From a virus, in the IMG/VR virus record IMGVR_UViG_3300010430_000069, positions 1 through 50,740 of that record: 50,740 bases of DNA; one strand, 5' to 3'. The position numbers and the translations under genes are program-made. How positions within the stretch are numbered: position 1 is the first letter of the stretch; every line of letters starts with the position of its first letter. Below the pieces are notes generated by a model. It had not been told where the DNA came from. It saw only the letters and a list, made by a program, of their open reading frames with translations, and did not search any database. This document shows positions 4,960 through 50,740 of the stretch, piece by piece.

Positions 4960-5521
4960 GTCGTTCCTTAATCTTTTTAGTGGTTTCCCAACCTAACTTA
5001 TAAAGCACCCATTCCAACCCATACCAAATTCTAAGTCCATCTATTACTGGATTAAGATAATTAGTCATTGGACAGAATTTGTAGCCAGCTAAGTGTTTCG
5101 GGATCAGCTTTTTCATTGATCGGTGGTGAAGATCATGTTCCTCGGCGGATTGAAATAATCCTACTCGTTGCATGAACTTTATAGACCAATGAAGCTGTCT
5201 TTGAGGAACATGAGACCAGCGATGAATTAGATTACCAACACTGGTAAATAGAACCCCTAACCAGAGAATCCTTGGTGCTCCAACCAACCACAGTATAGAC
5301 GCTAAGGGTACCGCGGCTATTACCGATGATTTTATGTTTGTCCAGGGTGTTCCGAGCAGCATGGCTGTTGGCTGACGATGGTGAAGATCGTTGTCCTCGG
5401 CTATTGAGTCAAGGAAGCTTAGAGAATAATTCCCATCTAAGTAACGATCTTCCCACCAATGAACAGCACCTGAAATGAGATCGGCCAGTAACCAAGCTGC
5501 CAGAATCTCAATTAGGATCAT
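4937..5521 (-). CDS. Lipid desaturase of the Kua/TMEM189/CarF family (plasmanylethanolamine desaturase type)
   Basis: The 194-residue membrane protein shows the family's histidine signature: SGAVHWWED (H21, D25), EDNDLHHRQPTAM (HH at 47-48), NLIHRWSH, EEHDLHH, and the ending PMTNYLNPVID. Three or four hydrophobic stretches separate them. In animals and Myxococcus, members make the vinyl-ether bond of plasmalogens from alkyl-ether lipids, using a di-iron centre. Plant relatives desaturate fatty acids, so the exact substrate here is open. All key histidines appear to be present. It sits inside the late structural operon, directly before a glycosyltransferase, which suggests late remodelling of the host envelope. 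Confidence 0.82.
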   Translation of the reverse strand: MILIEILAAWLLADLISGAVHWWEDRYLDGNYSLSFLDSIAEDNDLHHRQPTAMLLGTPWTNIKSSVIAAVPLASILWLVGAPRILWLGVLFTSVGNLIHRWSHVPQRQLHWSIKFMQRVGLFQSAEEHDLHHRSMKKLIPKHLAGYKFCPMTNYLNPVIDGLRIWYGLEWVLYKLGWETTKKIKERHEKADHL

Positions 5522-9681: not shown

Positions 9682-9714
9682 TTCGTCTTACTTGAAATTA
9701 TCAAGTATTTAAAC

Positions 9715-39964: not shown

Positions 39965-40009
39965 CAGAAACCGCCGCAACAGCGGCACAACCCAAGACGG
40001 AAACTGAGT
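39965..40009 (+). repeat. Direct repeat, copy 2
   Basis: Repeats CAGAAACCGCCGCAACAGCG, GCACAA and, after four changed bases, GACGGAAACTGAG from 39180-39225, 785 bases further on. Here it is mostly non-coding and ends just before the next start codon, so it looks like a copied gene end. Confidence 0.85.
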
Positions 40010-40010
40010 G

Positions 40011-40238
40011 ATGAGTGAAAATACAAAACACCCGCTTCAACAATTCTGGACTGAGAAGTCTGGCTGGAGCTCAGAGCTACATCCTTTACCTGAAATGGGT
40101 CTTAGTGAGGGCACACTGTGCATTGAAACATGGAACGCCGCTATTCAGGCGGTTATTGACTCCGTTGACATGGAGGACTGTAACGAGGAGAATGAAGAGA
40201 AGATTCACCGCCTGTTTTACCGCGGAGCTTTTGGATGA
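40011..40238 (+). CDS. Unknown small protein
   Basis: A 75-residue protein from the ATG at 40011 (a GTG lies directly before it). Sequence MSENTKHPLQQFWTEKSGWS then LCIETWNAAIQAVIDSVDME; helical C-terminal half. It opens the last part of the operon, which returns to tight ATGA overlaps. No family recognised. Confidence 0.58.
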   Translation: MSENTKHPLQQFWTEKSGWSSELHPLPEMGLSEGTLCIETWNAAIQAVIDSVDMEDCNEENEEKIHRLFYRGAFG

Positions 40239-40462
40239 TATCGAAGGAACAAAGGCTGCAGTCAGAGCTGGAGCAAGTTGATATTCAGATTGCCAACGTA
40301 CAGAAGTCGATCATGACTACTACTAATACCGATATCCTGTGTGTACAGGAGCACCGGTTGGAAGACTTGTTGGACTACCGAGCCAATCTATCGTCTCAGC
40401 TCCGTAGCATTGCTTTGGACAAACTGGTGGCAGACGCCCAGGAAATGGATATGGGGTATTAG
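40235..40462 (+). CDS. Small coiled-coil protein
   Basis: A 75-residue helical protein (EQRLQSELEQVDIQIANVQK, LEDLLDYRANLSSQLRSIAL) with heptad-like spacing. ATGA overlap with the upstream gene. Probably a dimeric helical hairpin; no family recognised. Confidence 0.6.
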   Translation: MISKEQRLQSELEQVDIQIANVQKSIMTTTNTDILCVQEHRLEDLLDYRANLSSQLRSIALDKLVADAQEMDMGY

Positions 40463-40463
40463 T

Positions 40464-40526
40464 ATGTCAGGACTTATTGGACTTGTTGTGCTCATCATCA
40501 TATTTATCGCACTTTTCGAGGATTAA
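40464..40526 (+). CDS. 20-residue membrane microprotein
   Basis: MSGLIGLVVLIIIFIALFED: an almost purely hydrophobic peptide between two genes with no spare sequence (one base before, one after). GGGG lies upstream of the ATG. A one-helix membrane peptide is likely; toxin, holin regulator or translational-coupling relay are all possible. Confidence 0.5.
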   Translation: MSGLIGLVVLIIIFIALFED

Positions 40527-40527
40527 T

Positions 40528-40767
40528 ATGAAGACTGACATATTTGTTAGTTTTGTTAACGGCGAGTCAATTATCATCCAGAATGATACTGAGGAAAAAG
40601 CCGAAGCTCTTTTTATTCATTTTGATGCACTTATGAGTAGCTCCCAGCGAGTTTTGAAGTATAATGATGTGATCTACAACCTGGATCACATTGTTCTTGT
40701 AGAACTTCGTGAGCCGCTTAACACCAATACTCCTCCTATGTCATCCGACTTTAAGGACATGATATGA
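40528..40767 (+). CDS. Member of a four-copy small protein family
   Basis: From the ATG at 40528 (MKTDIFVSFVNGESIIIQND) the protein has 79 residues. It shares a layout with the products at 41009, 41754 and 41990. There is a strand with a short turn (FxNGES), then a strand, a helix of E/A-rich sequence (TEEKAEALFIHFDALMSS), and two strands (NDVIYNLDHIVLVEL). The family is unknown to me. Four copies within 1.7 kb suggest local duplication and divergence. Confidence 0.62.
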   Translation: MKTDIFVSFVNGESIIIQNDTEEKAEALFIHFDALMSSSQRVLKYNDVIYNLDHIVLVELREPLNTNTPPMSSDFKDMI

Positions 40768-41012
40768 CCGACTACAAACGCCTGGTGGTTGAAACGCTTG
40801 GTGGAGCCTATGGGAAGGTGGCTGTTCGCCGCGGGCGAGGCACCAGTCAAGCGTGGATTTACATTTCAACTGAGCTCAAAGTAAGACCTGAGCACGTTGT
40901 GGCGACCGAGAAGGCTTTGCTGGACGCCGGCCACTGTGGCATTTACTACGACGATTGCCAGCCGGCCAGTAACCACGCCTTCGTTTTGTGGGCACATGGA
41001 GAGCGATCATGA
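40764..41012 (+). CDS. Unknown small protein
   Basis: An 82-residue protein (MTDYKRLVVETLGGAYGKVA ... HAFVLWAHGERS) with alternating strands and a helix, possibly ferredoxin-like. It overlaps both neighbours by 4 bases. No family recognised. Confidence 0.58.
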   Translation: MTDYKRLVVETLGGAYGKVAVRRGRGTSQAWIYISTELKVRPEHVVATEKALLDAGHCGIYYDDCQPASNHAFVLWAHGERS

Positions 41013-41461
41013 GCAGCATACTGTGTATTGCCTTGAAAGACAACACCTGGCACGAGTTTGTCTATGATAATGATCGGGAGGCTGAAGAGCTTATGGCGAA
41101 CATCAACACAATATTAAACAGTCCTTTGGGTTCGGTAGGCTCGATTTCCTTGGAGGGGGAGACTATCGCCTTTAAAGATATTGAGAGTCTTGCTCTTAAG
41201 GAATCACCCAAACCAAGGCAAAGCCTGGAAACTTTGCAGTTTATCCGTAAGAAAATACTGGATGACATCAATCGGTATAGTTTGGACGAGACGCACTGTA
41301 AGGAACTGGCTGATTATTACGAGAGTACTGGTGACGATAAACATTCCAAGTTACTCTTAAACCAGGCGTACCACGTTGCCTGTGCCCGCCAGCTTCTGCA
41401 AATGAGGCTAGAGCTCATTGAGGCAGATCTGTTTGCCTTGCAGGCTGAGGGGATGTTCTAG
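41009..41461 (+). CDS. Member of the four-copy family with helical extension
   Basis: From the ATG at 41009 the protein has 150 residues. The first 65 (MSSILCIALKDNTWHEFVYD, NDREAEELMANINTILNS, EGETIAFKDIESLAL) follow the same strand-turn-strand-helix-strand-strand plan as the products at 40528, 41754 and 41990. The remaining 85 residues are helical (LETLQFIRKKILDDINRYSL and later). So this copy is a fusion of the small domain with a helical tail. Confidence 0.62.
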   Translation: MSSILCIALKDNTWHEFVYDNDREAEELMANINTILNSPLGSVGSISLEGETIAFKDIESLALKESPKPRQSLETLQFIRKKILDDINRYSLDETHCKELADYYESTGDDKHSKLLLNQAYHVACARQLLQMRLELIEADLFALQAEGMF

Positions 41462-41757
41462 TGCACACGAGTATTGACATTTGGCCGAGTCACCTGAAAT
41501 CTTTGGAGGCGAAGCTCCTGTCAAAGGCCGCCGATGAGACTAAAGAACTTCGTATTCTTGAGGGAACAATTCGCTGGTTTGAGGACCGAGCTCCCCGGGA
41601 AACCTGCGACCTGATGAATCTCCAGGCCGGCATCATGCGGGAATACATTGAAGTTTTGAGGAAGCGGGCTGAATTAGTACGTAAGCAGCTAGACACCTAC
41701 ATGCGTCTAACAGACGACCAACGACAGACTTTTAAGAAAAACCGGAGGATGGGATGA
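41461..41757 (+). CDS. Helical basic protein
   Basis: A 98-residue protein starting at a GTG that shares a base with the preceding stop. Two long charged helices (SHLKSLEAKLLSKAADETKE, GIMREYIEVLRKRAELVRKQ) and a basic end. It resembles the helical tail of the protein encoded just upstream in general character, but no clear homology is seen by eye. Confidence 0.58.
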   Translation: MHTSIDIWPSHLKSLEAKLLSKAADETKELRILEGTIRWFEDRAPRETCDLMNLQAGIMREYIEVLRKRAELVRKQLDTYMRLTDDQRQTFKKNRRMG

Positions 41758-41993
41758 ACTACGGACTTACTGTTTACTTCAAAGACGGTACACACAAGAC
41801 CTTCCTGTGCCGAGAAGACACCGCCGAAGCTGCCAAGGAAATGTTTGCCGATATTTGGACGGCATTCTATGGTGACTCGACCTGGATCAGGATTCGTCAC
41901 GTAGCTATTTCACTGGATAACGTAAGTAACATTTGTGCAACATACTGGAATGGCTCAATCCGTACCCATTTGGATGAGGACATGGTCGTATGA
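41754..41993 (+). CDS. Member of a four-copy small protein family
   Basis: A 79-residue protein: MNYGLTVYFKDGTHKTFLCR, helix EDTAEAAKEMFADIWTAFYG, strands RIRHVAISLDNVSNICATYW. The FKDGT turn and the helix match the layout of the copies at 40528, 41009 and 41990. GGAGGA precedes the start. Function unknown. Confidence 0.64.
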   Translation: MNYGLTVYFKDGTHKTFLCREDTAEAAKEMFADIWTAFYGDSTWIRIRHVAISLDNVSNICATYWNGSIRTHLDEDMVV

Positions 41994-42235
41994 GGGAATT
42001 TGCCGTAAGTGTTACCTTTGACAACAAAACTGCCCGTGTGGTCTATGCTCCCGAGGATACCTACGAATCCGCCAAGAAAATGCTGGATGACTTCTGTATT
42101 ATCCTTGCTGACAAAGAGGACTACTTTGGCATCGAGAACACCATCTACCGCAAGGACACCGTACGCAAGATAGCCGTGAGCTGTGTTACGGGTGAAAAGA
42201 TGCTTCGGTACGACTACGACGAGGTTACCAAATGA
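41990..42235 (+). CDS. Member of a four-copy small protein family
   Basis: An 81-residue protein: MREFAVSVTFDNKTARVVYA, helix EDTYESAKKMLDDFCIILAD, strands NTIYRKDTVRKIAVSC. It is closest in plan to the product encoded just before it (both have EDT-xx-(A/S)A(K)-x-M at the helix). ATGA overlaps on both sides. Confidence 0.64.
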   Translation: MREFAVSVTFDNKTARVVYAPEDTYESAKKMLDDFCIILADKEDYFGIENTIYRKDTVRKIAVSCVTGEKMLRYDYDEVTK

Positions 42236-42519
42236 CCCGAGTATATTTTAAAGGCCCGTTTGAGGCGGAGATGGTTGAGGTTGCCCGGCAATGTGGAGGT
42301 GAGTTGCCCAGTTACCTCATGCTCTACCGCGGTAATGAATCCTGGTACCTAGGAGAAGACTTGTACTATGAGATCGATGACTACCGTCTAGTTCGAGACC
42401 TAGGAGACGTAGCCGTCTATGAATACGTGGGAGTCATGCCCGTTGCTGCTCCTCCGAGATTCCAGAGAGTGAAGATTGACCTGGAAGGTAGTGATCCACA
42501 GGAAAGCCTGGAATCGTAG
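42232..42519 (+). CDS. Unknown small acidic protein, last gene of the operon
   Basis: A 95-residue protein (MTRVYFKGPFEAEMVEVARQ ... YEYVGVMPVAAPPRFQRVKI) with mixed strands and a Glu/Ser-rich end. After it the gene order stops and an A-rich tract begins. No family recognised. Confidence 0.58.
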   Translation: MTRVYFKGPFEAEMVEVARQCGGELPSYLMLYRGNESWYLGEDLYYEIDDYRLVRDLGDVAVYEYVGVMPVAAPPRFQRVKIDLEGSDPQESLES

Positions 42520-42787
42520 GAAAGCCTTGAAAGCCCTGGAAAACTACAAGAAAAAAAAAACACAGGAAAAAAAAATAGAGAACGCAAGAAAGCACAAGAA
42601 AAAATAAGGAAAAAAAGAGAGAACGGTTAGTGTAGACCCTGCCCAGGGGTGAAACCGGACATACCCCCGGGGGTCGCGGTCTCGGTCCCTGTCCTCCTAG
42701 GCGATTCTAGCCGCCTGGGATCGATTCTCATGAGCTCCTAACCGCCCGGGCTATCCCGGGCGGGATTCTATCGGGATCCCTTACGGG
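42520..42787. repeat. Non-coding A-rich and palindromic junction
   Basis: No gene. The first 20 bases repeat GAAAGCCTTGAA-like words from the preceding gene end. Bases 42541-42625 are an A/G tract with long A runs. Then come a perfect 12-bp palindrome ACCCCCGGGGGT (42663-42674) and a 9-bp hairpin CCGCCCGGG / CCCGGGCGG with loop CTAT (42742-42763). The hairpin sits after the stop of the next minus gene and is probably its terminator, though it lacks a T-run. Confidence 0.7.
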
Positions 42788-43213
42788 CTAACCTGTGGCC
42801 CCATGTCGCCATAGCTGAGATCGGTAGGCAATCGCCTGATTGTACAGTTTGACATAACCAATTGGGTGATCCCAGGATACCCGCTCGGCTAGTTGGCGGG
42901 CACGGGTAGCAACCGGGCGGGATAGGCTCGCCCGTAGCTTGTCACACTCCTCTAGAATCTGATCGGTTACCTGTAGAATCTTTAGGTCACCTGGGATCCC
43001 ACGACAAACGTATACTTTCGCCCGTTCTGCTTTGATAACCTGGGAATAGTTCTCACCGTTCCACTCATAACCGTATACGGTACCTTGAAACCAGGTTAGT
43101 TTGTCGCACGCGTATTCTCGCCCGCCCACCCGGATAACCCAACCGTATCCGCGGTTGTTTGCGTCGAGTATATCTGCTTTTGTGATTCTACGATGCGATT
43201 GTCGGATTCCCAT
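42788..43213 (-). CDS. Cassette gene: unknown protein
   Basis: A 141-residue basic protein (MGIRQSHRRITKADILDANN, GYGWVIRVGGREYACDKLTW, IKAERAKVYVCRGIPGDL) with an N-terminal beta-rich part and a helical end. CTAGGAGA lies upstream of the ATG. It has its own promoter (43256-43284) and a GC-rich hairpin after its stop, the cassette plan of this island. No family recognised. Confidence 0.62.
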   Translation of the reverse strand: MGIRQSHRRITKADILDANNRGYGWVIRVGGREYACDKLTWFQGTVYGYEWNGENYSQVIKAERAKVYVCRGIPGDLKILQVTDQILEECDKLRASLSRPVATRARQLAERVSWDHPIGYVKLYNQAIAYRSQLWRHGATG

Positions 43214-43255
43214 AGCTTTAATCTCCTAGGAGGTTGTTCGGTTGTTCTGTCGGTT

Positions 43256-43284
43256 ATCTTACCGCCCGGGCGGGCTAGTGTCAA
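43256..43284 (-). promoter_or_regulatory. Cassette promoter with palindromic spacer
   Basis: Minus strand: TTGACA (43284-43279), 17-base spacer CTAGCCCGCCCGGGCGG, TAAGAT (43261-43256). The spacer holds the perfect 12-bp palindrome CCGCCCGGGCGG, a likely operator between -35 and -10. Its leader holds AACAACC twice. Confidence 0.8.
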
Positions 43285-43412
43285 CTAGGATTCCCGGTTA
43301 TTTGCTGAATTGCCCAATATAGTAACAGGCGGGCGGTCTCGGTTAAATAATCCGCTCCCAGGACGATAGTAAGCGTAGCAAGCAGCCCCTGCCAATATTC
43401 TCGATCAAACAT
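43281..43412 (-). CDS. Short cassette gene: 43-residue unknown protein
   Basis: An ATG at 43412 is preceded at 9 bases by AGGAGG, within the palindromic CCTCCTAGGAGG. It encodes MFDREYWQGLLATLTIVLGA, then DYLTETARLLLYWAIQQITG and NPS. One moderately hydrophobic helix pair. Its stop codon lies inside the -35 box of the next promoter. The strong ribosome site is the main support. Confidence 0.62.
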   Translation of the reverse strand: MFDREYWQGLLATLTIVLGADYLTETARLLLYWAIQQITGNPS

Positions 43413-43489
43413 AGGTTGTTTCCTCCTAGGAGGATAATCGGTTATTCGCCCGGGATCCCTTGAGAATTATTCCCATCCTGGACAAATTT

Positions 43490-43732
43490 TTATTCTATCG
43501 TCCTGCAATCCGCCCGGGTTACTCGCCTGGAAGTATGGAAGGAATCCGCCCGGGTTAGGAAACCTAGCTTGCCAATAAAATCCTGACCGGTTAGTTGCTG
43601 GGAGCCTAGCCCGGTAGTATCGGGTGGCAGGTATATTGTCCACCCGTCAGCATGATAGACAAACCAGCTATTGAGATGACCTAATTGGCCACCATGGAAA
43701 ACCAGGCTATCAAAGTTAGAAGGCAATTGCAT
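43490..43732 (-). CDS. Cassette gene: unknown small protein
   Basis: I start at the ATG at 43732 (MQLPSNFDSLVFHGGQLGHL), which has TTAGGAGC upstream; an in-frame start at 43810 would overlap the previous gene by 65 bases. 80 residues with WFVYHADGWTIYLPPDTTGL, beta-type, and a basic end. The gap to its upstream neighbour is 13 bases, so both share a transcript. Confidence 0.55.
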   Translation of the reverse strand: MQLPSNFDSLVFHGGQLGHLNSWFVYHADGWTIYLPPDTTGLGSQQLTGQDFIGKLGFLTRADSFHTSRRVTRADCRTIE

Positions 43733-43745
43733 AATCCCAGGGCTC

Positions 43746-43988
43746 CTAAAATCCGTGTACAGTTTCGGTTGGCGGGGTAATGTTGGGCGAGAATCGGCTA
43801 GTGTGGGCAATTACCATCTTACCACCCGCCCGGCGAACAACTACATAGGAGGGACAAACATAGGCGATCCCAGGGAAGTATAACCCGGGCTCCACTCGCA
43901 CGAGGGTAACCCGTTCTCCCAGGTTAGGAGATGCCGGGTTATCCCGATCCGGGCGAACACAAGTTAGCTGCAACGGTATCCTCAACAT
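43746..43988 (-). CDS. Cassette gene: unknown small basic protein
   Basis: An 80-residue protein (MLRIPLQLTCVRPDRDNPAS, RVTLVRVEPGLYFPGIAYVC). CCCAGGAGAT lies before the ATG. The C-terminal half is basic (VVVRRAGGKMVIAHTSRFSP). No cassette-type promoter is seen upstream, but a 6-bp hairpin (CCCCTA / TAGGGG) lies 20-35 bases before the start. Confidence 0.55.
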   Translation of the reverse strand: MLRIPLQLTCVRPDRDNPASPNLGERVTLVRVEPGLYFPGIAYVCPSYVVVRRAGGKMVIAHTSRFSPNITPPTETVHGF

Positions 43989-44326
43989 AATGTTATATCT
44001 CCTGGGAGCCCCTACCGATAGGGGGATAGGTAATTTTAGGTTGACACTTGGTATTTTGCTGGGTACACAGGCAGCGAGAGAGAAAGCAGTCTAAAAAATA
44101 GGAGCCTAGGAGCCTAGGAGCCTAGGAGCCTAGGAGCCTAGGAGGTTATAAGGGATCCCACTATAACATAACCTGGGAGGCTATTCTATTCTAATCCCCC
44201 TGGGATATTCTCCTAGTAGTTGTTCGCCCGTTCGCCCGTCCTGGGATCCCTGGGAATTATTCTCCCAGGTTAGGAGGTTAGGAGCAAAATAGCCCGCCCG
44301 GGATCCCAGGCGGGTTAGTTTCAATC
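43989..44326. repeat. Non-coding stretch with 8-bp tandem repeat and hairpins
   Basis: No gene. Bases 44101-44145 are five copies of GGAGCCTA plus GGAGG, an 8-bp tandem array that multiplies the ribosome-site/CCTAGG word of this island. Hairpins CCCCTACCGATAGGGG (44005-44030 region) and CTGGGA/TCCCAG (44249-44267) flank it. A plus-strand TTGACA at 44041 has only a poor -10 partner. The stretch probably arose by slippage of island boundary words. Confidence 0.75.
44293..44314 (-). terminator. Cassette terminator
   Basis: Minus strand: CCCGCC-T-GGGATCCC-G-GGCGGG forms a 6-bp stem with an inner palindrome, followed by CTATTTTG. It lies 12 bases after the stop of the 83-residue cassette gene. 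Confidence 0.72.
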
Positions 44327-44578
44327 CTAGCACTCAACGGTTAGCATTCTCAGCGGGTTACCCTGGATAACATAATCCTCCCGCCAATGAGCTGGAATAG
44401 TTGAGGGATACCGCGGGTTTACGTCTCCTAGGTCGCTCGTTTCCAGCTGAATAACGGTTGGGTCTGGGTGATTGCACTCGGTCTCAATTTTCACGACTAA
44501 TAGTCGCCGCCCATGGTAGTGTATAACCTGATTTTTTCGAACGTTTACAATGCTGGTTTCGGTTGTTTGCTTGGCCAT
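44327..44578 (-). CDS. Cassette gene: unknown small protein
   Basis: An 83-residue protein (MAKQTTETSIVNVRKNQVIH, YHGRRLLVVKIETECNHPDP ... LRMLTVEC), beta-rich and basic, perhaps a small nucleic-acid-binding barrel, but not recognised. It has every cassette element: promoter at 44619-44647, AACAACC leader, CCTAGGAGC before the ATG, and a terminator after the stop. Confidence 0.65.
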   Translation of the reverse strand: MAKQTTETSIVNVRKNQVIHYHGRRLLVVKIETECNHPDPTVIQLETSDLGDVNPRYPSTIPAHWREDYVIQGNPLRMLTVEC

Positions 44579-44618
44579 GGTTGGGCTCCTAGGCGGTTAG
44601 TTGGTTGTTCTGCTTTTC

Positions 44619-44647
44619 AATATATCGACCGCCCGTCCGCCCGTCAA
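44619..44647 (-). promoter_or_regulatory. Cassette promoter
   Basis: Minus strand: TTGACG (44647-44642), 17-base spacer GGCGGACGGGCGGTCGA, TATATT (44624-44619). The GGTCGATA junction before the -10 is shared with the promoter at 46026-46054. It lies directly after the terminator of the previous cassette. Confidence 0.82.
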
Positions 44648-44655
44648 TACTAATT

Positions 44656-44722
44656 CAAAAAATAACCTGGGAGCCCGATAGAACAACCGCCCGGGATCCC
44701 AGGTTATACGCTCCCAGGTTAT
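44656..44722 (-). terminator. Long-stem cassette terminator
   Basis: Minus strand: ATAACCTGGGAGC and GCTCCCAGGTTAT form a perfect 13-bp stem around a GC-rich 35-base loop, followed by a run of five Ts. It overlaps the stop codon of the 199-residue gene. The same arms reappear at 46071-46195. Confidence 0.88.
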
Positions 44723-45318
44723 GAGACCAGGGAGCCCGTTCTGTCGGCTATAGGTCCCAATGGGAACCGGTAACCGTACGCTTGCCAATTTCGATATTCA
44801 TGCATGATTGGAAAGAAACCTACCGCCCGTTCAAGCTTAACTTGATAGCCTACCCAAAGACAAGCTTGTGTTTGAGCGTAGGTTAACCCGTGCACGCGGG
44901 CTAGTCGTTTGATAGCCCGGGTTATCCGCCCGTAGTTGTCCGCTCGAAATAGTTTTTCCTGGGGTACCTTGAATATTTTTCCCATCCAGCTATCGAGCAC
45001 GATAGCCCGCCCGTTACCAAGTAAAGCTTGCTGGAAAGCGGAGGTTTTTCTCCCGCGTATTTCGCCCGTCAAAATGTAGTGTTCTGTGGCAATGATCACA
45101 TTGTCCATGGCGTCAAGATAATTGGAATTGCCCATGACTTCAAATGCTATGCGGATATTACGCTTTACCGATACTTTCGGGCTAGTCGTGGCAATCACGC
45201 CAGCGAGGTTAACGGGATCCCACCCGTTTAAATCAGCAACCGTCCGGAGCTCATCTTCCGCCCGGGAATACCATTCCCGCCCGGTCTCGCCCGCCAATTC
45301 TATTAGCTTTGAATACAT
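44719..45318 (-). CDS. DUF7178-like protein (helix-hairpin-helix glycosylase-like pattern)
   Basis: The 199-residue protein resembles a phage family I recall as DUF7178. REWYSRAEDELRTVADLNGW is followed by LAGVIATTSPKVSVKRNIRI, an A-F-Q-Q-A-L-L-G-N-G segment with IVLDSWMGKIF, and LTYAQTQACLWVGYQVK. The pattern of helices with a lone Lys and Asp is like HhH-GPD DNA glycosylases, but an active site is not proven. It could act on damaged or modified DNA. GTTAGGAGA precedes the ATG. No own promoter is visible, so it probably depends on the upstream cassette. Confidence 0.6.
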   Translation of the reverse strand: MYSKLIELAGETGREWYSRAEDELRTVADLNGWDPVNLAGVIATTSPKVSVKRNIRIAFEVMGNSNYLDAMDNVIIATEHYILTGEIRGRKTSAFQQALLGNGRAIVLDSWMGKIFKVPQEKLFRADNYGRITRAIKRLARVHGLTYAQTQACLWVGYQVKLERAVGFFPIMHEYRNWQAYGYRFPLGPIADRTGSLVS

Positions 45319-45362
45319 TATTAGCTTTCTCCTAACCTGGGATCCTCCCAGGATAATAATGC

Positions 45363-45396
45363 GAAAGAATAGGAGCCCGATAGAATACCGGGCTCC
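45363..45396 (-). terminator. Cassette terminator
   Basis: Minus strand: GGAGCCCG / CGGGCTCC, a perfect 8-bp stem with a 9-base loop, followed by TATTCTTTCG. It lies 15 bases after the stop of the 45412-45960 gene. Confidence 0.75.
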
Positions 45397-45411
45397 CAGG
45401 TTAACCGCCCG

Positions 45412-45960
45412 TTAGATACGGATCTCGGAACGGTTGCTGATATCCCATATCGCCAATTGACGGTTATATCTTCCCACCCGGATAGCCTCGGATAATTCCG
45501 GGATCCAAATAGATCTATCTAGATACAGCTGATTGGAGTCAATCCAGCCTCCCAGGAAACGTTCGCCCGTTCGCCCGTCCTGCAACCAGTCCAGGTTATC
45601 CCAGGTGAATCGGAAAACATCGGCGACCGAGAATCCGACGTCAATAGTTTCTCCGCGGTAGTTTACCATGGTTTGACGTTGGAGGATATCGCCTCCAATC
45701 ATGGAAACGAGATAGCCCGTTTCTCGACAATCCCAGGGAGCTACCGAAAACCCGCCCGATCCCAATTGACTAAAAGCCAGGGCGGTTAGGTCCGCGGCTA
45801 GTTTCATAGCCCGGGCGGTTGTTCGGCTATCGTCATCCTGGGAAACAAAGCCACAATATGAGGCGAAGCGGGATTCTCCTATAGTATAGGAAAGCACTGG
45901 GAATAGTTCTCCCTGGGAGTGCCCTTGAATGCCGGCAACATTATCACGCAAGTTCAACAT
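45412..45960 (-). CDS. Cassette gene: unknown protein
   Basis: The start is set at the ATG at 45960 (MLNLRDNVAGIQGHSQGELF), which has GAGGAG 9 bases upstream. The in-frame start at 46026 would fall in the -10 box and is excluded. The 182-residue protein is mixed alpha/beta (AMKLAADLTALAFSQLGSGG, FSVADVFRFTWDNLDWLQDG). No family recognised. Own promoter at 46026-46054 and terminator after the stop. Confidence 0.65.
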   Translation of the reverse strand: MLNLRDNVAGIQGHSQGELFPVLSYTIGESRFASYCGFVSQDDDSRTTARAMKLAADLTALAFSQLGSGGFSVAPWDCRETGYLVSMIGGDILQRQTMVNYRGETIDVGFSVADVFRFTWDNLDWLQDGRTGERFLGGWIDSNQLYLDRSIWIPELSEAIRVGRYNRQLAIWDISNRSEIRI

Positions 45961-46025
45961 ACTTCTGACTCCTCGAAAGTTTGAAAAATAGCCCGGTTGA
46001 TTAATTCGCCCGGTTGCTGCAATCA

Positions 46026-46054
46026 ATACTATCGACCGTCCGGGCGGTTGTCAA
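46026..46054 (-). promoter_or_regulatory. Cassette promoter
   Basis: Minus strand: TTGACA (46054-46049), 17-base spacer ACCGCCCGGACGGTCGA, TAGTAT (46031-46026). The spacer contains CCG(CCCGGA)CGG-type dyad sequence and the shared GGTCGATA junction. Confidence 0.8.
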
Positions 46055-46066
46055 TTGCAATTATGG

Positions 46067-46200
46067 AAAAATAACCTGGGAGGCTCCCAGGTAAACCGAG
46101 CTCCCAGGATCCCAGGATCCCAGGCTCCCAGGACAACCGGGCTCCCAGGACAACCGGGCTCCCAGGATCCCAGGACAACCGGGCTCCCAGGTTATTTTTT
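46067..46200. terminator. Bidirectional terminator-like inverted repeat filled with 17-bp repeats
   Basis: ATAACCTGGGAG (46071-46082) and CTCCCAGGTTAT (46184-46195) form a 12-bp stem. A-runs on the left and T-runs on the right give T-tracts on both strands. Between the arms the words CTCCCAGGACAACCGGG and CCCAGGATCC are repeated several times. It sits exactly between the divergent cassette promoters at 46026-46054 and 46230-46258 and would insulate them from each other. Confidence 0.7.
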
Positions 46201-46207
46201 GAAAATT

Positions 46208-46227
46208 GTCAATTCTATAGAATTGAC
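46208..46227. promoter_or_regulatory. Perfect 20-bp palindrome beside the plus cassette promoter
   Basis: GTCAATTCTATAGAATTGAC is its own reverse complement and ends three bases before the -35 box at 46230. A symmetric protein-binding site (activator or repressor) is the simplest reading. Confidence 0.65.
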
Positions 46228-46229
46228 TG

Positions 46230-46258
46230 TTGACGGGCGGGCTAGTTGTCGATATTAT
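46230..46258 (+). promoter_or_regulatory. Cassette promoter, plus strand
   Basis: TTGACG (46230-46235), 17-base spacer GGCGGGCTAGTTGTCGA, TATTAT (46253-46258). Same spacing, GTCGATA junction and GAACAACCTCCTA leader word as the minus-strand cassettes, although it faces the other way. Confidence 0.82.
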
Positions 46259-46301
46259 TAAAGCACGACAAACGAACAACCTCCTAACCTGGAAACCTAC
46301 A

Positions 46302-46463
46302 ATGTATCGAAAATTATTTTCTCAATCTGACTTTGATTCTTTCTGTGAAGCTGTCGCCGAATTAATAGGAGCCCGAAACGTTGCAAATAATCTTAAGAGA
46401 ATCCTGCACTACTACCAAAACGACTACACGCCAGGGGAAACCGCGGATATCCTGGGAGAATAG
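46302..46463 (+). CDS. Cassette gene: 53-residue unknown protein
   Basis: From the ATG at 46302 (MYRKLFSQSDFDSFCEAVAE, then LIGARNVANNLKRILHYYQN and DYTPGETADILGE), a small helical protein. Its promoter starts 72 bases upstream. An 8-bp GAAA-loop hairpin follows the stop. It is the only plus-strand gene of the island. No family recognised. Confidence 0.62.
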   Translation: MYRKLFSQSDFDSFCEAVAELIGARNVANNLKRILHYYQNDYTPGETADILGE

Positions 46464-46474
46464 GGAAACCCGGG

Positions 46475-46494
46475 CTCCCTGGGAAACCAGGGAG
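46475..46494 (+). other. GAAA-tetraloop hairpin after the plus cassette gene
   Basis: CTCCCTGG, loop GAAA, CCAGGGAG: a perfect 8-bp stem 11 bases beyond the stop. There is no T-run, so it may stabilise the 3' end or end transcription only weakly. A GCCCGCGGGC palindrome follows it. Confidence 0.65.
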
Positions 46495-46726
46495 ATTGCC
46501 CGCGGGCGGGCGATCCGACCAGAGGGAGGAGGGGGAGGAGATTTTGATTTTTTTCGCGTGCACACGTACGTGTAGGCGGTTAATACGGGCCGGCGTCAAA
46601 TTCTGGAATAATACCATAGATTAACAAATTCAAGGTTCAGTATATAATACACTGCCGCCGCGGCCCGGTTCAGCTTCAGTTTCCCCAATTCAGCCAGCCG
46701 GCCACAAATTTCCAGGTTAGTCTATA
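46495..46726. other. Non-coding stretch with palindromes and a lone TATAAT
   Basis: No gene seen. It holds GCCCGCGGGC, a G/A-rich run, the 12-bp palindrome ACACGTACGTGT near 46562, and three related CAAATT-type words (near 46597, 46626 and 46704). A TATAAT at 46643-46648 has no matching -35 box. Confidence 0.5.
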
Positions 46727-46804
46727 AATAGAAAGAGGCTAGGACCCCCCTCAGGCTCCGGGAGCGGAGAAACGAAACTCCGGGAGCTCAAAGTCCTAGC
46801 CTCT
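46727..46804 (-). terminator. Elaborate terminator of the 46817-47266 gene
   Basis: Minus strand: AGAGGCTAGGAC and GTCCTAGCCTCT form a 12-bp outer stem; inside are two copies of GCTCCCGGAG-type hairpins; TTTCTATTTATAG follows. It starts 12 bases after the stop codon. Confidence 0.78.
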
Positions 46805-46816
46805 CATTCAGAGAAG

Positions 46817-47266
46817 TCAATCAAGTTGTTCATCTTCATTCCACATGTCCAAGACTTCTCGGCCATGCTCTGTCAGCCCAACTGCAGTCCAGTCTTTTGT
46901 ATCTGCGGTGATCAGCATGTCTGCAGATATCGCATAGGCTATCTTATTCTGTTCCCCCAGTGAGTCAGACTCAAAGCAGGATGTTCGCCCAACCTCTAGC
47001 AGATTCGCTGGAACTGCTATTACTTTGTGGGGAATGTTTGGGTCATGGTTTTCCTGTATCGACTCCAGAGGACCAACTGAAATGAGGGTTTCAAAGTCCT
47101 GGTAGTGTATCAGGAAGTCCATGAACATTCCCAGGTCGGCGAAGTTCGTATGCTGTACGTACAGGCCAACCCATCGGTTTTGGTCTTTTACGGTTATCCA
47201 GGCAATCATAGAATGCAGGACCCCGCTATTAGACCGAAGATTAGACTCAGTAACAAAGTGAGCCAC
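46817..47266 (-). CDS. Unknown protein
   Basis: The 149-residue frame starts at a GTG (MAHFVTESNLRSNSGVLHSM); an internal ATG at residue 20 is an alternative. The middle (WVGLYVQHTNFADLGMFMDF, LISVGPLESIQENHDPNIPH) is alpha/beta and the end (VGLTEHGREVLDMWNEDEQ) looks like a winged-helix fragment, though uncertain. It has a strong terminator downstream and an A-rich (minus-strand) leader upstream. Confidence 0.6.
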   Translation of the reverse strand: MAHFVTESNLRSNSGVLHSMIAWITVKDQNRWVGLYVQHTNFADLGMFMDFLIHYQDFETLISVGPLESIQENHDPNIPHKVIAVPANLLEVGRTSCFESDSLGEQNKIAYAISADMLITADTKDWTAVGLTEHGREVLDMWNEDEQLD

Positions 47267-47309
47267 AATCTAGGCGGTTTCATTTCTCGTTTCTCCGAAT
47301 GTTTTAAAG

Positions 47310-47349
47310 AACCCCTGGGAATAATTCCCAGAGGGTTTTTTTTTATTTT
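47310..47349 (+). terminator. Strong plus-strand terminator
   Basis: AACCC / GGGTT enclosing TGGGAA / TTCCCA with loop TAA, followed by nine Ts, an A, and more Ts. It would stop rightward transcripts, such as those from 46230 that run on through the opposite-strand gene. Confidence 0.85.
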
Positions 47350-47520
47350 TTTTCTTCCTGAGAATTTTTTTTTCTCTAGGATTTTTTTTCTCCTGGGGAA
47401 AATTATTTTCTCTAGGATTTTTTTTTTCTCTTAGAAAACTTTTTTTTCCTAGAAATTAATTTTTTCCCCATGTGGGAAAATTATTGTTTTCTGGAAAAAG
47501 TTTTCTTCTCAGGAAAATTA
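47338..47520. repeat. T-rich low-complexity tract with repeated words
   Basis: About 180 bases made of T-runs broken by short words. TTTTCTCTAGGATTTTTTTT occurs twice and GGAAAATTATT three times, with many self-complementary AATTTTCC/GGAAAATT pairs. No gene. It mirrors the A-rich tract at 42541-42625, so the two tracts flank the cassette island in inverted orientation. Confidence 0.75.
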
Positions 47521-47796
47521 TTCTCCCTTGAAGAAATTGGCAGCTCCAAACCCTTCGGCAATGGAGTCAAGGGAGCCCTGCTGGGAATCATCCAGTGTCG
47601 AATAGATGTCCTGGCAAATGTCTTTCAGGCAATTGTCAATTGCTTCGCTGATGGTTTGCAGGTGTGTCAGGGTGCGAACCTTGTGTCCATCGTTGTCTGA
47701 AGTCATGACCAGAGCGGCACCATGCTTCAAATGTTCCTGGCCTGATTGGATCCGTTTTAGCAATTCAATTGCTTCAATACTAGCTTTATCAAACAT
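47518..47796 (-). CDS. Unknown helical protein
   Basis: A 92-residue helical acidic protein (MFDKASIEAIELLKRIQSGQ, LTHLQTISEAIDNCLKDICQ). Small helical proteins of similar size follow upstream in the same strand, perhaps distant relatives. A role is unknown. Confidence 0.58.
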   Translation of the reverse strand: MFDKASIEAIELLKRIQSGQEHLKHGAALVMTSDNDGHKVRTLTHLQTISEAIDNCLKDICQDIYSTLDDSQQGSLDSIAEGFGAANFFKGE

Positions 47797-47869
47797 ATCG
47801 TATTTCCGAAGTGAGGGAAAGTGAAAAATAAGGGATTTTTGGATTTTCTTGTGGGTGCGTCAGAGCTCC

Positions 47870-48154
47870 TCAGGGCCTCTGTAACGTCCTCTCAAGGTTA
47901 TCCGCAATCTCATTCAAGTGAGGGTCGGAGAACTCGTCTCCGATGTTCCTGGACAGCTTAATGACAGCCTGAAGGCAGGTGTCATGGTTTGCATCGTCAG
48001 CCTCGTATCGGCAGACTTCATTCCTAGTTCTGACAACATCCGTCATTAGAGCCTTTGGATCCGCCACAGCATCCTGATTGCGAAGTACCAGGCTCTCGGC
48101 TGAGTCCAACAGTAACTGAAGCGTAGTCACGAGTGTAGACTTGTAGGAGCTCAT
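47870..48154 (-). CDS. Unknown helical protein
   Basis: From the ATG at 48154 (AGGA 8 bases upstream) the protein has 94 residues (MSSYKSTLVTTLQLLLDSAE, LSRNIGDEFSDPHLNEIADN). An in-frame start at 48193 lacks a ribosome site. It overlaps the upstream gene by 131 bases in another frame, far more than its neighbours do, so a frameshift or one false end is possible. Confidence 0.55.
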   Translation of the reverse strand: MSSYKSTLVTTLQLLLDSAESLVLRNQDAVADPKALMTDVVRTRNEVCRYEADDANHDTCLQAVIKLSRNIGDEFSDPHLNEIADNLERTLQRP

Positions 48155-48392
48155 CTCGTTGATCCTGAATGTGTTGTCCGAGTTGCCGTGCATACGAATC
48201 AGTTTTGGCTGCTTCCTGTGCCATCAGGATAGCTGCATCGTGGTAGTCAATTAAGCATTCCACAAGTTTCTTTTCCACTTGAGGAACTACCGCCGAGAAA
48301 TCGACAATCTCAGAATCCAATGCTAGGTAGATCGAAGGAATCGACTCGACCAGCTCTTCAATACGTTCTTGGATCAGGTCACGATTAGACAT
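48024..48392 (-). CDS. Unknown helical protein with Cys-rich tail
   Basis: A 122-residue protein; the first 80 residues are regular helix (MSNRDLIQERIEELVESIPS, LIDYHDAAILMAQEAAKTDS). The last 25 (SQSGCCGGSKGSNDGCCQN) are low-complexity and lie where another frame also codes. The true C-terminus may be shorter or joined to the next gene by frameshift. Confidence 0.52.
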   Translation of the reverse strand: MSNRDLIQERIEELVESIPSIYLALDSEIVDFSAVVPQVEKKLVECLIDYHDAAILMAQEAAKTDSYARQLGQHIQDQRDELLQVYTRDYASVTVGLSREPGTSQSGCCGGSKGSNDGCCQN

Positions 48393-48717
48393 TCGGTTTC
48401 TCCCATGTCAGTAGTGTTTCTTTTCCCCATTGTTCTTCCATTTCTGAAAGATTCTCCTGCATCGTCCGCATCTCATTGGCATTTGCCTCCAGAACATCTG
48501 GTGGCATAAACTTAGCTGCTTCGGAGATTACCAGTCCGCAGTAGTACTTGAGTTTTGTGATGCTCAGATCGTAGAAATCCAGCATTTCCGAAGAATCTTT
48601 CCCTTGGAATTCGTTGAGCAGGACTCCTGCCTTAACCATTTCCAACAAAGCTGGGCAAAGATCAACGATCAGCTGGAGATTACTTACAATCTCGGTATCT
48701 TGGAGTGTCTTACTCAT
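48385..48717 (-). CDS. Unknown helical protein
   Basis: From the ATG at 48717 (MSKTLQDTEIVSNLQLIVDL), in an ATGAGTAA overlap with the previous gene, the protein has 110 residues. Mostly helical with acidic patches (ANEMRTMQENLSEMEEQWGK). Longer in-frame starts lie inside the previous gene and are unlikely. No family recognised. Confidence 0.58.
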   Translation of the reverse strand: MSKTLQDTEIVSNLQLIVDLCPALLEMVKAGVLLNEFQGKDSSEMLDFYDLSITKLKYYCGLVISEAAKFMPPDVLEANANEMRTMQENLSEMEEQWGKETLLTWEKPNV

Positions 48718-49000
48718 TTTCAAAGGTCTCTTGGAAGGAACGAAGATCTTGCAAGTCAGCAGCCAGCTGGTCCAAACCATCAACGATACTTTGATCGTCC
48801 TGGTAGTTGGGGATGGATCGGACGCCAGCTTCCAGCTTTTCCCCACAGAAGATTGCTGAAGCAACCAAGCTCTGGGTGATATCCTCGTAGCTGTTGGGGG
48901 GCATTTTGTTCAGAGCAGCATTGCCCATGAAATCTGCAGCCTCTGAGATGATGTTGAACGAAGTCTGAACGTTGTCTTCGCGTGTCTTGTCTTCCGACAT
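48710..49000 (-). CDS. Unknown helical acidic protein
   Basis: A 96-residue protein (MSEDKTREDNVQTSFNIISE, YEDITQSLVASAIFCGEKLE, GLDQLAADLQDLRSFQETF), with TTAGGAGAA before the ATG. It heads the run of four small helical proteins transcribed leftwards from near the tRNA-like cluster. No family recognised. Confidence 0.6.
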   Translation of the reverse strand: MSEDKTREDNVQTSFNIISEAADFMGNAALNKMPPNSYEDITQSLVASAIFCGEKLEAGVRSIPNYQDDQSIVDGLDQLAADLQDLRSFQETFENE

Positions 49001-49145
49001 CTGTTTCTCCTAATGAAACGAAAGTAAAAGGTCAGGTAGGTAGGAGTTTCACCTACGATGGGATGGTAATATTCCACTCAGGGACGCCAAAGTCCCCCGC
49101 TAATTTTTGTAGCTTACCACACTACTGTCCGCGTTCTACCTGGAG
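49001..49145. other. Gap with hairpins; no gene
   Basis: No coding sequence. GTAGG / CCTAC with a 7-base loop (49038-49054) and GGGAC / GTCCC with a 6-base loop (49080-49095) are visible and may process or end the tRNA-like transcript. Confidence 0.5.
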
Positions 49146-49211
49146 AAGTCACCGCTGGAATCGAACCAGCGTTCCCTCAATTGAGGTGTCCTACCACTGG
49201 ACGAGGCGACT
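49146..49211 (-). tRNA. tRNA-like element with a 2-nt anticodon loop
   Basis: Minus strand: acceptor AGTCGCC / GGTGACT (7 bp with one G-T), T8, D stem GTCC / GGAC with A14, GG and A21 in the loop, then T arm GCTGG-TTCGATT-CCAGC. Variable region GAAC. The anticodon stem CCTCA / TGAGG is intact, but only AT lies between its strands where seven bases are expected. So the body is a normal tRNA with its anticodon missing. Pseudogene, decoy, or a substrate for insertion/editing are possible; normal decoding is not. Confidence 0.7.
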
Positions 49212-49311
49212 TTAAAATGCTCCCATCGCATAGCCGACGACAGGAGCGGATAGATTAAAAGTCTATTTGTTTTCCCTCGCAATTGTACAACGTTTAACCG
49301 TAAGGTTTAGT

Positions 49312-49402
49312 CTGACAGGGTTTCGTCTTAGCCTTTGGACAACCTCCCAGGATATTGTTTGCCCCGAGCTGGGAGGGCCGGACTCGAACCGGCATAAAAC
49401 CC
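49312..49402 (-). tRNA. Circularly permuted tRNA-like gene (3' half before 5' half), unit B
   Basis: Minus strand order: 49402-49369 holds G38, GGTTT, variable TAT, T arm GCCGG-TTCGAGT-CCGGC, 3' acceptor CCTCCCA and discriminator G. A 19-base linker follows. Then 49349-49312 holds 5' acceptor TGGGAGG, TT, D arm GTCC-AAAGGCTAA-GAC, G26, AAACC, and loop CTGTCAG. Acceptor pairs 7/7 and anticodon stem 5/5 only in permuted order. T33 and anticodon GTC (Asp) are readable in the 5' half if the join is near 37/38; T1-A72 with G73 is otherwise a Gln-type end. So identity is open. Confidence 0.75.
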
Positions 49403-49481
49403 GCATAAAGGTCCCACGGAATCGATTACAATCGCAATTCGTTGTCTAAGTCTCAAGCAATAACCTAAGACTAAATTGTCC

Positions 49482-49556
49482 TCCTGCCTCCTCGGCCACT
49501 GGGATACCTCCCGTTAAAAGTCGGGAGGGTTGGATTCGAACCAACGTCTAACAGGG
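49482..49556 (-). tRNA. Circularly permuted tRNA-like gene, unit C
   Basis: Minus strand order: 49556-49521 holds CCTGT, variable TAGAC, T arm GTTGG-TTCGAAT-CCAAC, 3' acceptor CCTCCCG and discriminator A. A 7-base linker follows. Then 49513-49482 holds 5' acceptor CGGGAGG, TA, D arm TCC-CAGTGGCCGA-GGA, G26 and GCAGG. Acceptor pairs 7/7; anticodon stem GCAGG/CCTGT pairs 5/5 with one G-T; A14, G15-C48, G18G19 and A21 are in place. The anticodon cannot be read, because neither flank gives a T33. C1-G72 with A73 recalls proline tRNAs. Confidence 0.72.
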
Positions 49557-49602
49557 TGGACGGTTCAAGCTGAGCTTACTACTAAGCCTGTTTGCTTGTA
49601 TC

Positions 49603-50337
49603 CTATTCGCCCCACAGGTAGTCAAAGACTGCCTCTGAAACGTGTTGTTCTTGTACGTCCAGGCTGTTGGCCTGTTCGCGAGCTTTCTTCACTGCCTCAA
49701 CCAGTTTGGTCAGTCGAGCCTGGATCTCACGCTTCTCAGCCGGCGACAATGCCGCGGCAAAGTTAACGCTCTTCCAGTAACCAACCAGGACATCCTCATT
49801 GTAGGCCTGAACCTGTGCTGGATGTTTGTCGGTTGCTTCGTAGAGTACTTGCACCTTTGGTACTTTCTTGCTACGAATGGTTTCCACAGGAGCTGACACG
49901 TACAGTTCCTGGTTGCTGTCCCAGGTCCAGTCTACGGAATCGCTGAGCTCTGGGAGCTTGTCAACGAAGGTACGTAGGTTGACCAATTGCTTCTCCAGGA
50001 AAAGCAGGTAGGTGACCGGGGCATCTGCAATCACAGTCTTACCGTCTATCTCGACATCAGCCGTTGCAGTTTGATTTCCCCATTCCTGGGTAGCTACCAC
50101 GTCAAAGTAGTCTTGCAGTGGAGCCTGAGCAGACGTCAGGATGTCCCGTACGCGACTCACGACTTTCTTGTTTTCTGCCGGCAGGCGATCACCCTCGTCA
50201 TCTTTCGGAGTGTACGTTCGACTCAAACCAACGAAGTTGTCGGTTCGCTGTGATGCATGATGAAGTTCGGTCAGGGTCTTCTCGGCACGAGTTTTCTTGC
50301 CTTTGAGGACAGCCAGGACTTGGTTAAGTTTTCCCAT
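49603..50337 (-). CDS. Conserved phage protein (DUF7873-like)
   Basis: The 244-residue protein matches a family I recall as DUF7873, common in actinobacterial phages. Matching segments are KLNQVLAVLKGKKTRAEKTL, ELHHASQRTDNFVGLSRTY, VTYLLFLEKQLVNLRTFVDK, WTWDSNQELYVSAP, EATDKHPAQVQAYNEDVLVG and YWKSVNFAAALSP. Function is unknown; the long helical C-terminus (RLTKLVEAVKKAREQANSLD) suggests assembly or binding. It lies directly upstream of the permuted tRNA-like genes on the same strand. Confidence 0.78.
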   Translation of the reverse strand: MGKLNQVLAVLKGKKTRAEKTLTELHHASQRTDNFVGLSRTYTPKDDEGDRLPAENKKVVSRVRDILTSAQAPLQDYFDVVATQEWGNQTATADVEIDGKTVIADAPVTYLLFLEKQLVNLRTFVDKLPELSDSVDWTWDSNQELYVSAPVETIRSKKVPKVQVLYEATDKHPAQVQAYNEDVLVGYWKSVNFAAALSPAEKREIQARLTKLVEAVKKAREQANSLDVQEQHVSEAVFDYLWGE

Positions 50338-50340
50338 CGA

Positions 50341-50682
50341 TCAATCTCCTACAGGGGTTGCTGAAATAACGTTTCGGTAAGTGCTAAGCCATTTGATTCG
50401 CCAGCCAACTACCTTTAAGTCGTACTTGCCAGGATGAATCTTACCGTATAAATCAGAAGAATCAAACTTTCCTAGCAAAATGTTGTCGGTGTTTTTGAAC
50501 GTCTCGCCTTCGGTGTAGATCAAGTAGTAGCTTGAATCTCCGGAGGTAACTCGTTCGGTTTTGGTCACCGTTGCCGTGATGTGATCCATTGTACCGTAGG
50601 CTTCAAAGGCCGGCAACACCAAAACTGCCAAAATCATCAAAATAATGGTGACGACAATAAATCGGTCTGTCCCTTTACCCAT
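50341..50682 (-). CDS. DUF1523-like membrane protein
   Basis: A 113-residue protein with one N-terminal membrane helix (FIVVTIILMILAVLVLPAFE). A small beta domain follows, with ITATVTKTERVTSGDSSYYL, IYTEGETFKNTDNILLGKFD, SSDLYGKIHPGKYDLKVVGW and LSTYRNVI. This order matches DUF1523-type proteins seen in phages and proteobacteria, as I recall them; function unknown. It would sit in the inner membrane with the beta domain outside. Confidence 0.7.
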   Translation of the reverse strand: MGKGTDRFIVVTIILMILAVLVLPAFEAYGTMDHITATVTKTERVTSGDSSYYLIYTEGETFKNTDNILLGKFDSSDLYGKIHPGKYDLKVVGWRIKWLSTYRNVISATPVGD

Positions 50683-50740
50683 TACGTTGTTTCTCCAATG
50701 CTCGAAGTTCTGAAAGTTTTCGTTCGTAGGCTCGTTCCGC
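50675..50740 (-). CDS. Partial gene, C-terminal end only
   Basis: The last 21 codons of a frame entering from the right edge (AERAYERKLSELRALEKQRN, then G and stop). Charged and helical, possibly coiled coil. Its stop overlaps the next start by 8 bases (ATGGGTAA). Identity cannot be given. Confidence 0.5.
   Translation of the reverse strand, partial: AERAYERKLSELRALEKQRNG

Follow-up and report, generated by a model that had tools for sequence, protein, structure and literature searches.

An island of about 4,000 bases in IMGVR_UViG_3300010430_000069, a single IMG/VR virus record of 50,740 bases that was analysed over its whole length (the window), carries eight small genes (A-H) together with a vocabulary of short repeated words. 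From its sequence we consider it probable (roughly 0.6) that the island is a phage-native array of accessory genes, in which at least four of the eight genes would be driven by diverged copies of a single promoter-leader cassette of ~62-75 bases, the host's housekeeping RNA polymerase would read the cassette promoters, and hairpin terminators would insulate the units. The promoters would fire, probably early, and because the terminators would insulate units lying between convergent operons, genes could be gained or lost without disturbing those operons.

The island, which an initial annotation had placed at 42788-46463, is real and extends somewhat further on both sides. The flanking operons converge on it, the left one (plus strand) stopping at 42519 and the right one (minus strand) at 46817, and the left one is ATGA-coupled as had been described for the neighbours, with genes overlapping by 4 bases at 41754, 41990 and 42232. 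The right part of the window, island included, is also carried at 99.7% by a sister contig, IMGVR_UViG_3300006467_000134 (G001, 105,608 bases). The island and its genes are as follows:

42640 to 46560: the whole island, a repeated-word region between two convergent operons (word density profile, 8-mer counts).
42788 to 43213, minus strand: gene A, 141 amino acids (open reading frame with an AGGAG site).
43281 to 43412, minus strand: gene B, 43 amino acids, with a CCTAGGAG ribosome site and an AACAACC leader (open reading frame).
43490 to 43732, minus strand: gene C, 80 amino acids from ATG, with a TTAGGAG site (open reading frame).
43746 to 43988, minus strand: gene D, 80 amino acids (open reading frame).
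44327 to 44578, minus strand: gene E, 83 amino acids, with a CCTAGGAG ribosome site (open reading frame).
44719 to 45318, minus strand: gene F, 199 amino acids, DUF7178, a predicted OGG2-like helix-hairpin-helix (HhH) DNA glycosylase/apurinic-apyrimidinic (AP) lyase (K91, D109; Pfam, alignment, model).
45412 to 45960, minus strand: gene G, 182 amino acids, C-terminally similar to phrog_17808 and to phage proteins, some of them near DUF7178 genes.
46302 to 46463, plus strand: gene H, 53 amino acids, the weakest gene call, with no clear ribosome site (open reading frame).

Four promoters with TTGAC(A/G) and a TATAAT-like box had been proposed, and all of them lie at the expected positions with a box-to-box distance of exactly 17 bases:

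43256 to 43284, minus strand: promoter of A, TTGACA-N17-TAAGAT, whose spacer contains CCGCCCGGGCGG (box match, alignment).
44619 to 44647, minus strand: promoter of E, TTGACG-N17-TATATT (box match, GTCGATA junction, alignment).
46026 to 46054, minus strand: promoter of G, TTGACA-N17-TAGTAT (box match, GTCGATA junction, alignment).
46230 to 46258, plus strand: promoter of H, TTGACG-N17-TATTAT (box match, GTCGATA junction, alignment).

The number of promoters in the island that match at 10/12 or better is 4, whereas 200 shuffles averaged 0.33, and four further parts of the window showed no clear promoter excess in the same scan; a looser scan over 40000-50740 returned 15 sites against 10.5 ± 3.1, which taken alone is a weak excess. 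The shared words that had been reported around these promoters are likewise present. GTCGATA plus TATT occurs three times in the 50.7-kb window, each time at one of these promoters, with 0.04 expected; a GGGCGG/CCGCCC-type box is found in all four spacers, while a random 17-mer of island noncoding DNA has one in 15% of cases; and a leader word is common to A, E and H in the alignment, with AACAACC also upstream of B. The four upstream regions align as a single cassette, consisting of the -35 box, a GGGCGG or CCGCCC box, GTCGATA, the -10 box and a GCAGAACAACC-like leader, and an AGGAG-type site follows the leader in all but H. The GGGCGG/CCGCCC boxes would allow common control: the CCGCCCGGGCGG boxes may be operators, and such words are also spread throughout the genes.

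Hairpins follow several of the genes. The proposal that GC-rich stems end the genes holds for E, F and G, which are followed by T-tailed hairpins, and less well for A and H, where the hairpins have no T run. The features between genes are:

44099 to 44144: tandem repeat of TAGGAGCC, 5.8 copies (repeat scan).
44293 to 44314, minus strand: terminator-like hairpin after gene E (fold z -3.8).
44655 to 44707, minus strand: terminator-like hairpin after gene F, with a long stem and T6 (fold z only -1.7).
45370 to 45398, minus strand: terminator-like hairpin after gene G (fold z -4.3).
46058 to 46208: insulator-like block separating the diverging promoters of G and H (fold z -3.3 on plus, -4.4 on minus).

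In the block between G and H, which resembles a bidirectional terminator, inverted arms of 25 bases carrying T runs on either strand flank a tandem array; the sister contig has 43 more bases in this array. Part of the gene F hairpin repeats 46180-46203 exactly, in inverted orientation, over 24 bases. Along the island as a whole RNA structure is not unusual (mean z -1.0/-1.2, compared with -1.2/-1.2 in the right flank), and an Rfam search gave sub-threshold matches only. The ribosome site CCTAGGAG, proposed as common to the island, serves A, B and E, that is, three of the eight genes; five more copies sit within the (TAGGAGCC)n tandem repeat, AGGAG sites of another form stand before C, D, F and G, and none is visible for H.

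Comparable arrays surround relatives of F in other phages, and the island therefore counts as a variant of a known design. An alignment search for relatives of F was followed up for the best 80 of 110 loci, of which one (L079) is this phage and was left out, leaving 79. Defining a locus as promoter-rich when its excess of sigma-70-type promoters has z over 3, we find 18 promoter-rich loci among these 79 and 2 among 44 controls, which are word-pattern loci rather than random phage DNA; the promoter totals are 228 against 66 expected at the loci with F relatives and 18 against 11 in the controls. In all 49 records longer than 30 kb, 11 of them first chosen for high scores and 38 added later, the fetched surroundings of the gene (355 kb) make up 11% of 3,145 kb of sequence and contain 95 of 202 strict promoters; much of this signal stems from a set of probably related phages whose promoter spacers are alike.

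Three of these arrays, at L082, L099 and L101, resemble the island in having small genes behind copies of a common control cassette with a relative of F present. At L082 (3400-7455) roughly seven small genes stand near a terminase, most of them behind a near-identical spacer of ~140 bases in which, by eye, a terminator, a GATCCGATC palindrome, a -10-like box and a ribosome site precede the genes. L099 (600-8200) has nine copies of a TGTC(C/G)GTG-TATAAT leader before small genes, and there a relative of F lies directly beside a relative of G; in L101, CTTGACAC stands 11 times upstream of -10 boxes, counting both strands. They differ from the island in that the shared sequences are unrelated and that in L082, the only one tested, the words barely enter the genes (a slight excess of 22 against 15.0 ± 3.4 in 300 permutations, largest 24). 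At L101 500-6000 (G004 81.3-93.5 kb) we also observe TTGACA-N17-TACAAT-like promoters of both orientations packed densely into a single 12-kb stretch of a phage contig of 137 kb. A further parallel is the host-takeover module of Bacillus phage SPO1, where numerous small genes come with numerous host-type promoters and terminators. Our literature search, over sources available in part, found no publication describing an array or dialect of this kind.

The array of several genes, equipped with promoters and terminators of its own, that the initial annotation had envisaged is thus supported by the sequence and by comparable arrays in other phages, and several points weigh against it. A recognisable promoter of this type stands upstream of only four of the eight genes, the -10 boxes of these four match at 4-5 of 6 bases, and the strict promoter pattern applied to the other phages has 8 matches in the sister contig, all of them outside the island. 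As many as 61 of the 79 DUF7178 loci are not promoter-rich, many of the promoter-rich DUF7178 records share similar spacers and look like one related phage group, and L080 and L081, close relatives of F, lie outside repeat arrays. Codon usage and G+C of the island differ from the rest of the phage, as they would after import. The likeness to morons that had been suggested is a loose fit: there are terminator-like hairpins, an odd composition and a site between convergent operons, with promoter-like sites at half of the genes.

The words themselves are confined to the island as had been claimed, 8-base words being restricted to 42.6-46.5 kb. Those with at least five island copies reach 122 per kb inside and 1.0 per kb in the preceding 42.6 kb, a contrast that is partly built in since the words were picked in the island. 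In a fairer test the words were drawn from the island noncoding DNA only, and these occur at 44 per kb in the island genes compared with 2.2 per kb in the rest of the window. The initial annotation had overlooked that the same words fill the coding sequences too: noncoding-derived words number 116 in the island genes against 17.7 ± 5.5 under synonymous codon permutation (500 permutations, largest 35), and 7-base words counted without overlap number 62 against 20.3 ± 3.8 (400 permutations, largest 30). The excess is at least one standard deviation above the mean in seven of the eight genes, H being the exception, and the words are ~4x denser in noncoding than in coding island DNA. In F they fall within motifs common to its relatives, e.g. 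TGEIRG and AIVLD, so they were made there by codon choice and not by repeat insertion. The general repeat score of the island is 0.213; L014, L048, L082 and L089 score higher, which arises from high G+C, from coding repeats or, in L082, from the cassette array plus pentapeptide genes. Spread into synonymous positions may have come about by local homogenisation, either copying between units or a bias limited to the block, rather than from a foreign host chromosome. We put forward, tentatively, that the words are a dialect of one 4-kb phage block, held in synonymous codons and control regions alike and kept by word recombination (homology tags for gene swapping) or by locus-specific mutation or selection.

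Recent import from a cellular genome or its plasmid saturated with words like highly iterated palindromes (HIPs), so that the vocabulary is the dialect of a donor, would account for words at synonymous positions in genes and for a codon usage and G+C unlike the phage; we nevertheless hold it to be unlikely, on the evidence of GCGC. Outside the island (sister contig, L042-L047) GCGC occurs once against 114 expected, and CGATCG, CTCGAG, CACGTG, GCATGC, CGGCCG and GGGCCC are all absent, an avoidance that suggests hosts with many type II specificities. Though richer in G and C, the island has no GCGC against 12.3 expected (1000 shuffles, smallest 3), and its genes have none against 7.5 under synonymous permutation (zero reached in 1 of 1000). 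The island has thus probably long been under the same pressure as the phage, presumably restriction, and because it shares this near-total avoidance, recent import from a host chromosome is unlikely. GTCGAC and ATGCAT, as a separate observation, occur once each outside the island, with ~19 expected.

GGGATCCC, at 2041 per Mb in the island (8 copies in 3.92 kb) and absent from the remaining 46.8 kb of the window, resembles the HIP of hot-spring Synechococcus, two strains of which have this octamer over-represented at 1160 and 1345 per Mb according to PMC4390886, a possible lead to a host or donor. That source gives HIP frequencies of ~1000-2000 per Mb across a whole genome; CCTGGGA, at 9694 per Mb in the island, lies beyond this range. 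Like cyanobacterial HIPs, the island has over-represented GC-rich words, GGGATCCC among them, whereas HIPs are genome-wide and the island words are partly non-palindromic and belong to one 4-kb phage block, so that we do not class them as HIPs. A word-triple pattern that matches the island 3 times returned 12 single, scattered matches across 84,980 species genomes, none of them in word-rich DNA, a plasmid search for the island gave no match, and phage searches by megablast and blastn returned nothing of value. Two word patterns run against IMG/VR revealed no word island besides this phage (L053, L054) and mostly scattered chance matches; the sole dense stretch (L015) and the next (L019) turned out to be repeats of unrelated proteins or regions. 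The same vocabulary is found in no other virus, plasmid or genome collection searched. Profiles of DNA methyltransferases (PF01555, PF00145, PF02086) had no match in the sister contig.

Avoidance of GCGC extends to some relatives of F. GCGC is below 0.15 of expectation in 4 of the 79 loci with F relatives (L080, L081, L099 and L138, the last with an expectation of only 4.2), with counts of 0 against 60 in L080 and 2 against 28 in L081. Ranked by E-value, L080 and L081 are the best two matches to F, and ranked by identity they belong to its closest three; the other of those three, L082, shows no avoidance (79 against 44 expected). That F's near relatives L080 and L081 and the F- and G-bearing L099 also avoid GCGC suggests from sequence comparison that genes may be exchanged among phages meeting the same hosts, which would be GCGC-cutting.

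More doubtful again is the idea that the words (e.g. CCGCCCGGGCGG, CCTGGGATCCCAGG) are sites for a phage or host regulator or a DNA-organising protein, selected also inside genes. The GGGCGG/CCGCCC box in all four promoter spacers, with 15% expected for each, and the higher density of words in noncoding DNA are what binding sites would give, yet the words form several unrelated families and not one site, and no regulator was recognised among the island genes (Pfam, PHROG, NCBIfam, PADLOC).

The named repeat systems offer partial likenesses. Start-associated sequences (SAS) and extended SAS (ESAS), known from Cluster K mycobacteriophages (PMC3203893) and Microbacterium Cluster EF phages (PMC7302621), are, like the island words, short and repeated where small non-structural genes begin, and inverted repeats lie upstream of some; the island words differ in that they also make up promoter spacers and terminators, are present on both strands and fill genes. 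Cluster K genomes have 11-19 copies of GGGATAGGAGCCC, mostly 3-7 bases before starts (PMC3203893). The initial annotation had drawn a likeness to such repeats in some mycobacteriophages, but the window has one match to the Cluster K consensus (scanned with up to 2 deviations), itself with 2 mismatches and not at a start codon, and 0.74 are expected; the island is not counted with that family. The 17-bp palindromic repeats of Cluster O mycobacteriophages (PMC4351075) are likewise dyad words that occur both between and within the genes of one phage; there one near-invariant motif is found genome-wide, whereas the island has a vocabulary limited to 4 kb.

That the words stem solely from local slippage and conversion, with the promoter-like sites as functionless by-products, appears improbable. 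Tandem arrays of 8, 17 and 25 bases do lie within the island, and one differs by 43 bases between two contigs, but the four sites stand upstream of genes in the correct order, with correct spacing and leaders, and far above shuffles. An assembly artefact or chimera, to which the sharp word boundary and repetitive DNA might point, is highly improbable, as a second, longer contig (the two may stem from related samples) has the same island and flanks with 43 columns as the only difference, and the genes are intact and have homologues.

Gene F, whose relatives accompany the arrays in other phages, matches DUF7178 (PF23802) at E 9.6e-18 and 65.2 bits against a curated cut-off of 27. A structure model built from a 34-sequence alignment, all sequences coming from the window and the fetched loci, has pLDDT 90.8. 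In a VIA comparison its best rows are OGG structures (archaeal OGG, Z 12.4, root-mean-square deviation 3.1, 158 residues), with other HhH glycosylases ranked below and the entire upper list belonging to one superfamily, though helical proteins can attain Z 13 by chance. Foldseek alone is not significant (E 0.13), a profile search of the Protein Data Bank (PDB) with the F family reaches OGG entries at E 0.37 and 0.57, and a PDB sequence search gave no match for F alone and weak, unrelated matches for G. K91 and D109, invariant across the 34 F-family sequences, may correspond to the catalytic Lys/Asp pair of OGG, and on the model F is predicted to be an OGG2-like HhH DNA glycosylase/AP lyase. 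A literature search of limited reach found no publication naming DUF7178. The C-terminal part of G resembles phrog_17808 and function-unassigned phage proteins, some of them encoded beside DUF7178 genes, and A-E and H have no family at a meaningful score in Pfam, PHROG, NCBIfam or PADLOC. Adjoining a relative of G in Gordonia phage Fryberger (L072, 2848-5420) are six gene gaps of 75-81 bases that by eye contain stem-like repeats and mostly have GAGAGAGGAAAGA-type ribosome sites.

The source is a ~105-kb tailed phage with a GpA-type terminase, a capsid-like protein, a B12-type ribonucleotide reductase, thymidylate synthase and a lipid desaturase (PF10520, at window 4937-5521). Window 25207-25333 matches both ends of IMGVR_UViG_3300006467_000134, which is therefore probably circular or terminally redundant. 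A literature search gave nothing on the environment of the metagenomes. The 43 extra columns in the alignment of the two contigs correspond to one difference in length, of 43 bases, within the tandem array near 46.1 kb, and this array (46102-46191) is the sole difference between both contigs in 14 kb. A relative with a TerL of 72% (G003) aligns solely to the structural part of the window and avoids GCGC as well (7 against 79 expected). Its high-repeat stretch was rejected as a word island, being a coding 15-base repeat; this long repeat (L048, 10680-12260) is apparently coding, presumably for a coiled-coil protein. L068, found via a right-flank protein, is a high-G+C phage having only that gene in common. 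Elsewhere in the window there is a purine-rich stretch with A runs at 42540-42640, directly left of the island; an AT-rich hairpin array with long T runs and a 36-base period at 47300-47540, between two leftward genes and perhaps a multiple terminator; and divergent strict promoters ending TATAAT at ~22347 and ~22536 (from G001 102622 and 102811), between leftward structural and rightward genes.

Together, these results make the island a clear added case of a design that recurs in phages, where every small accessory gene has its own copy of one control cassette, and DUF7178, the predicted OGG2-like glycosylase, is a marker for finding further arrays. Further, the excess of words in genes that obey GCGC avoidance makes it testable whether a vocabulary can arise, persist in one block and guide gene exchange.

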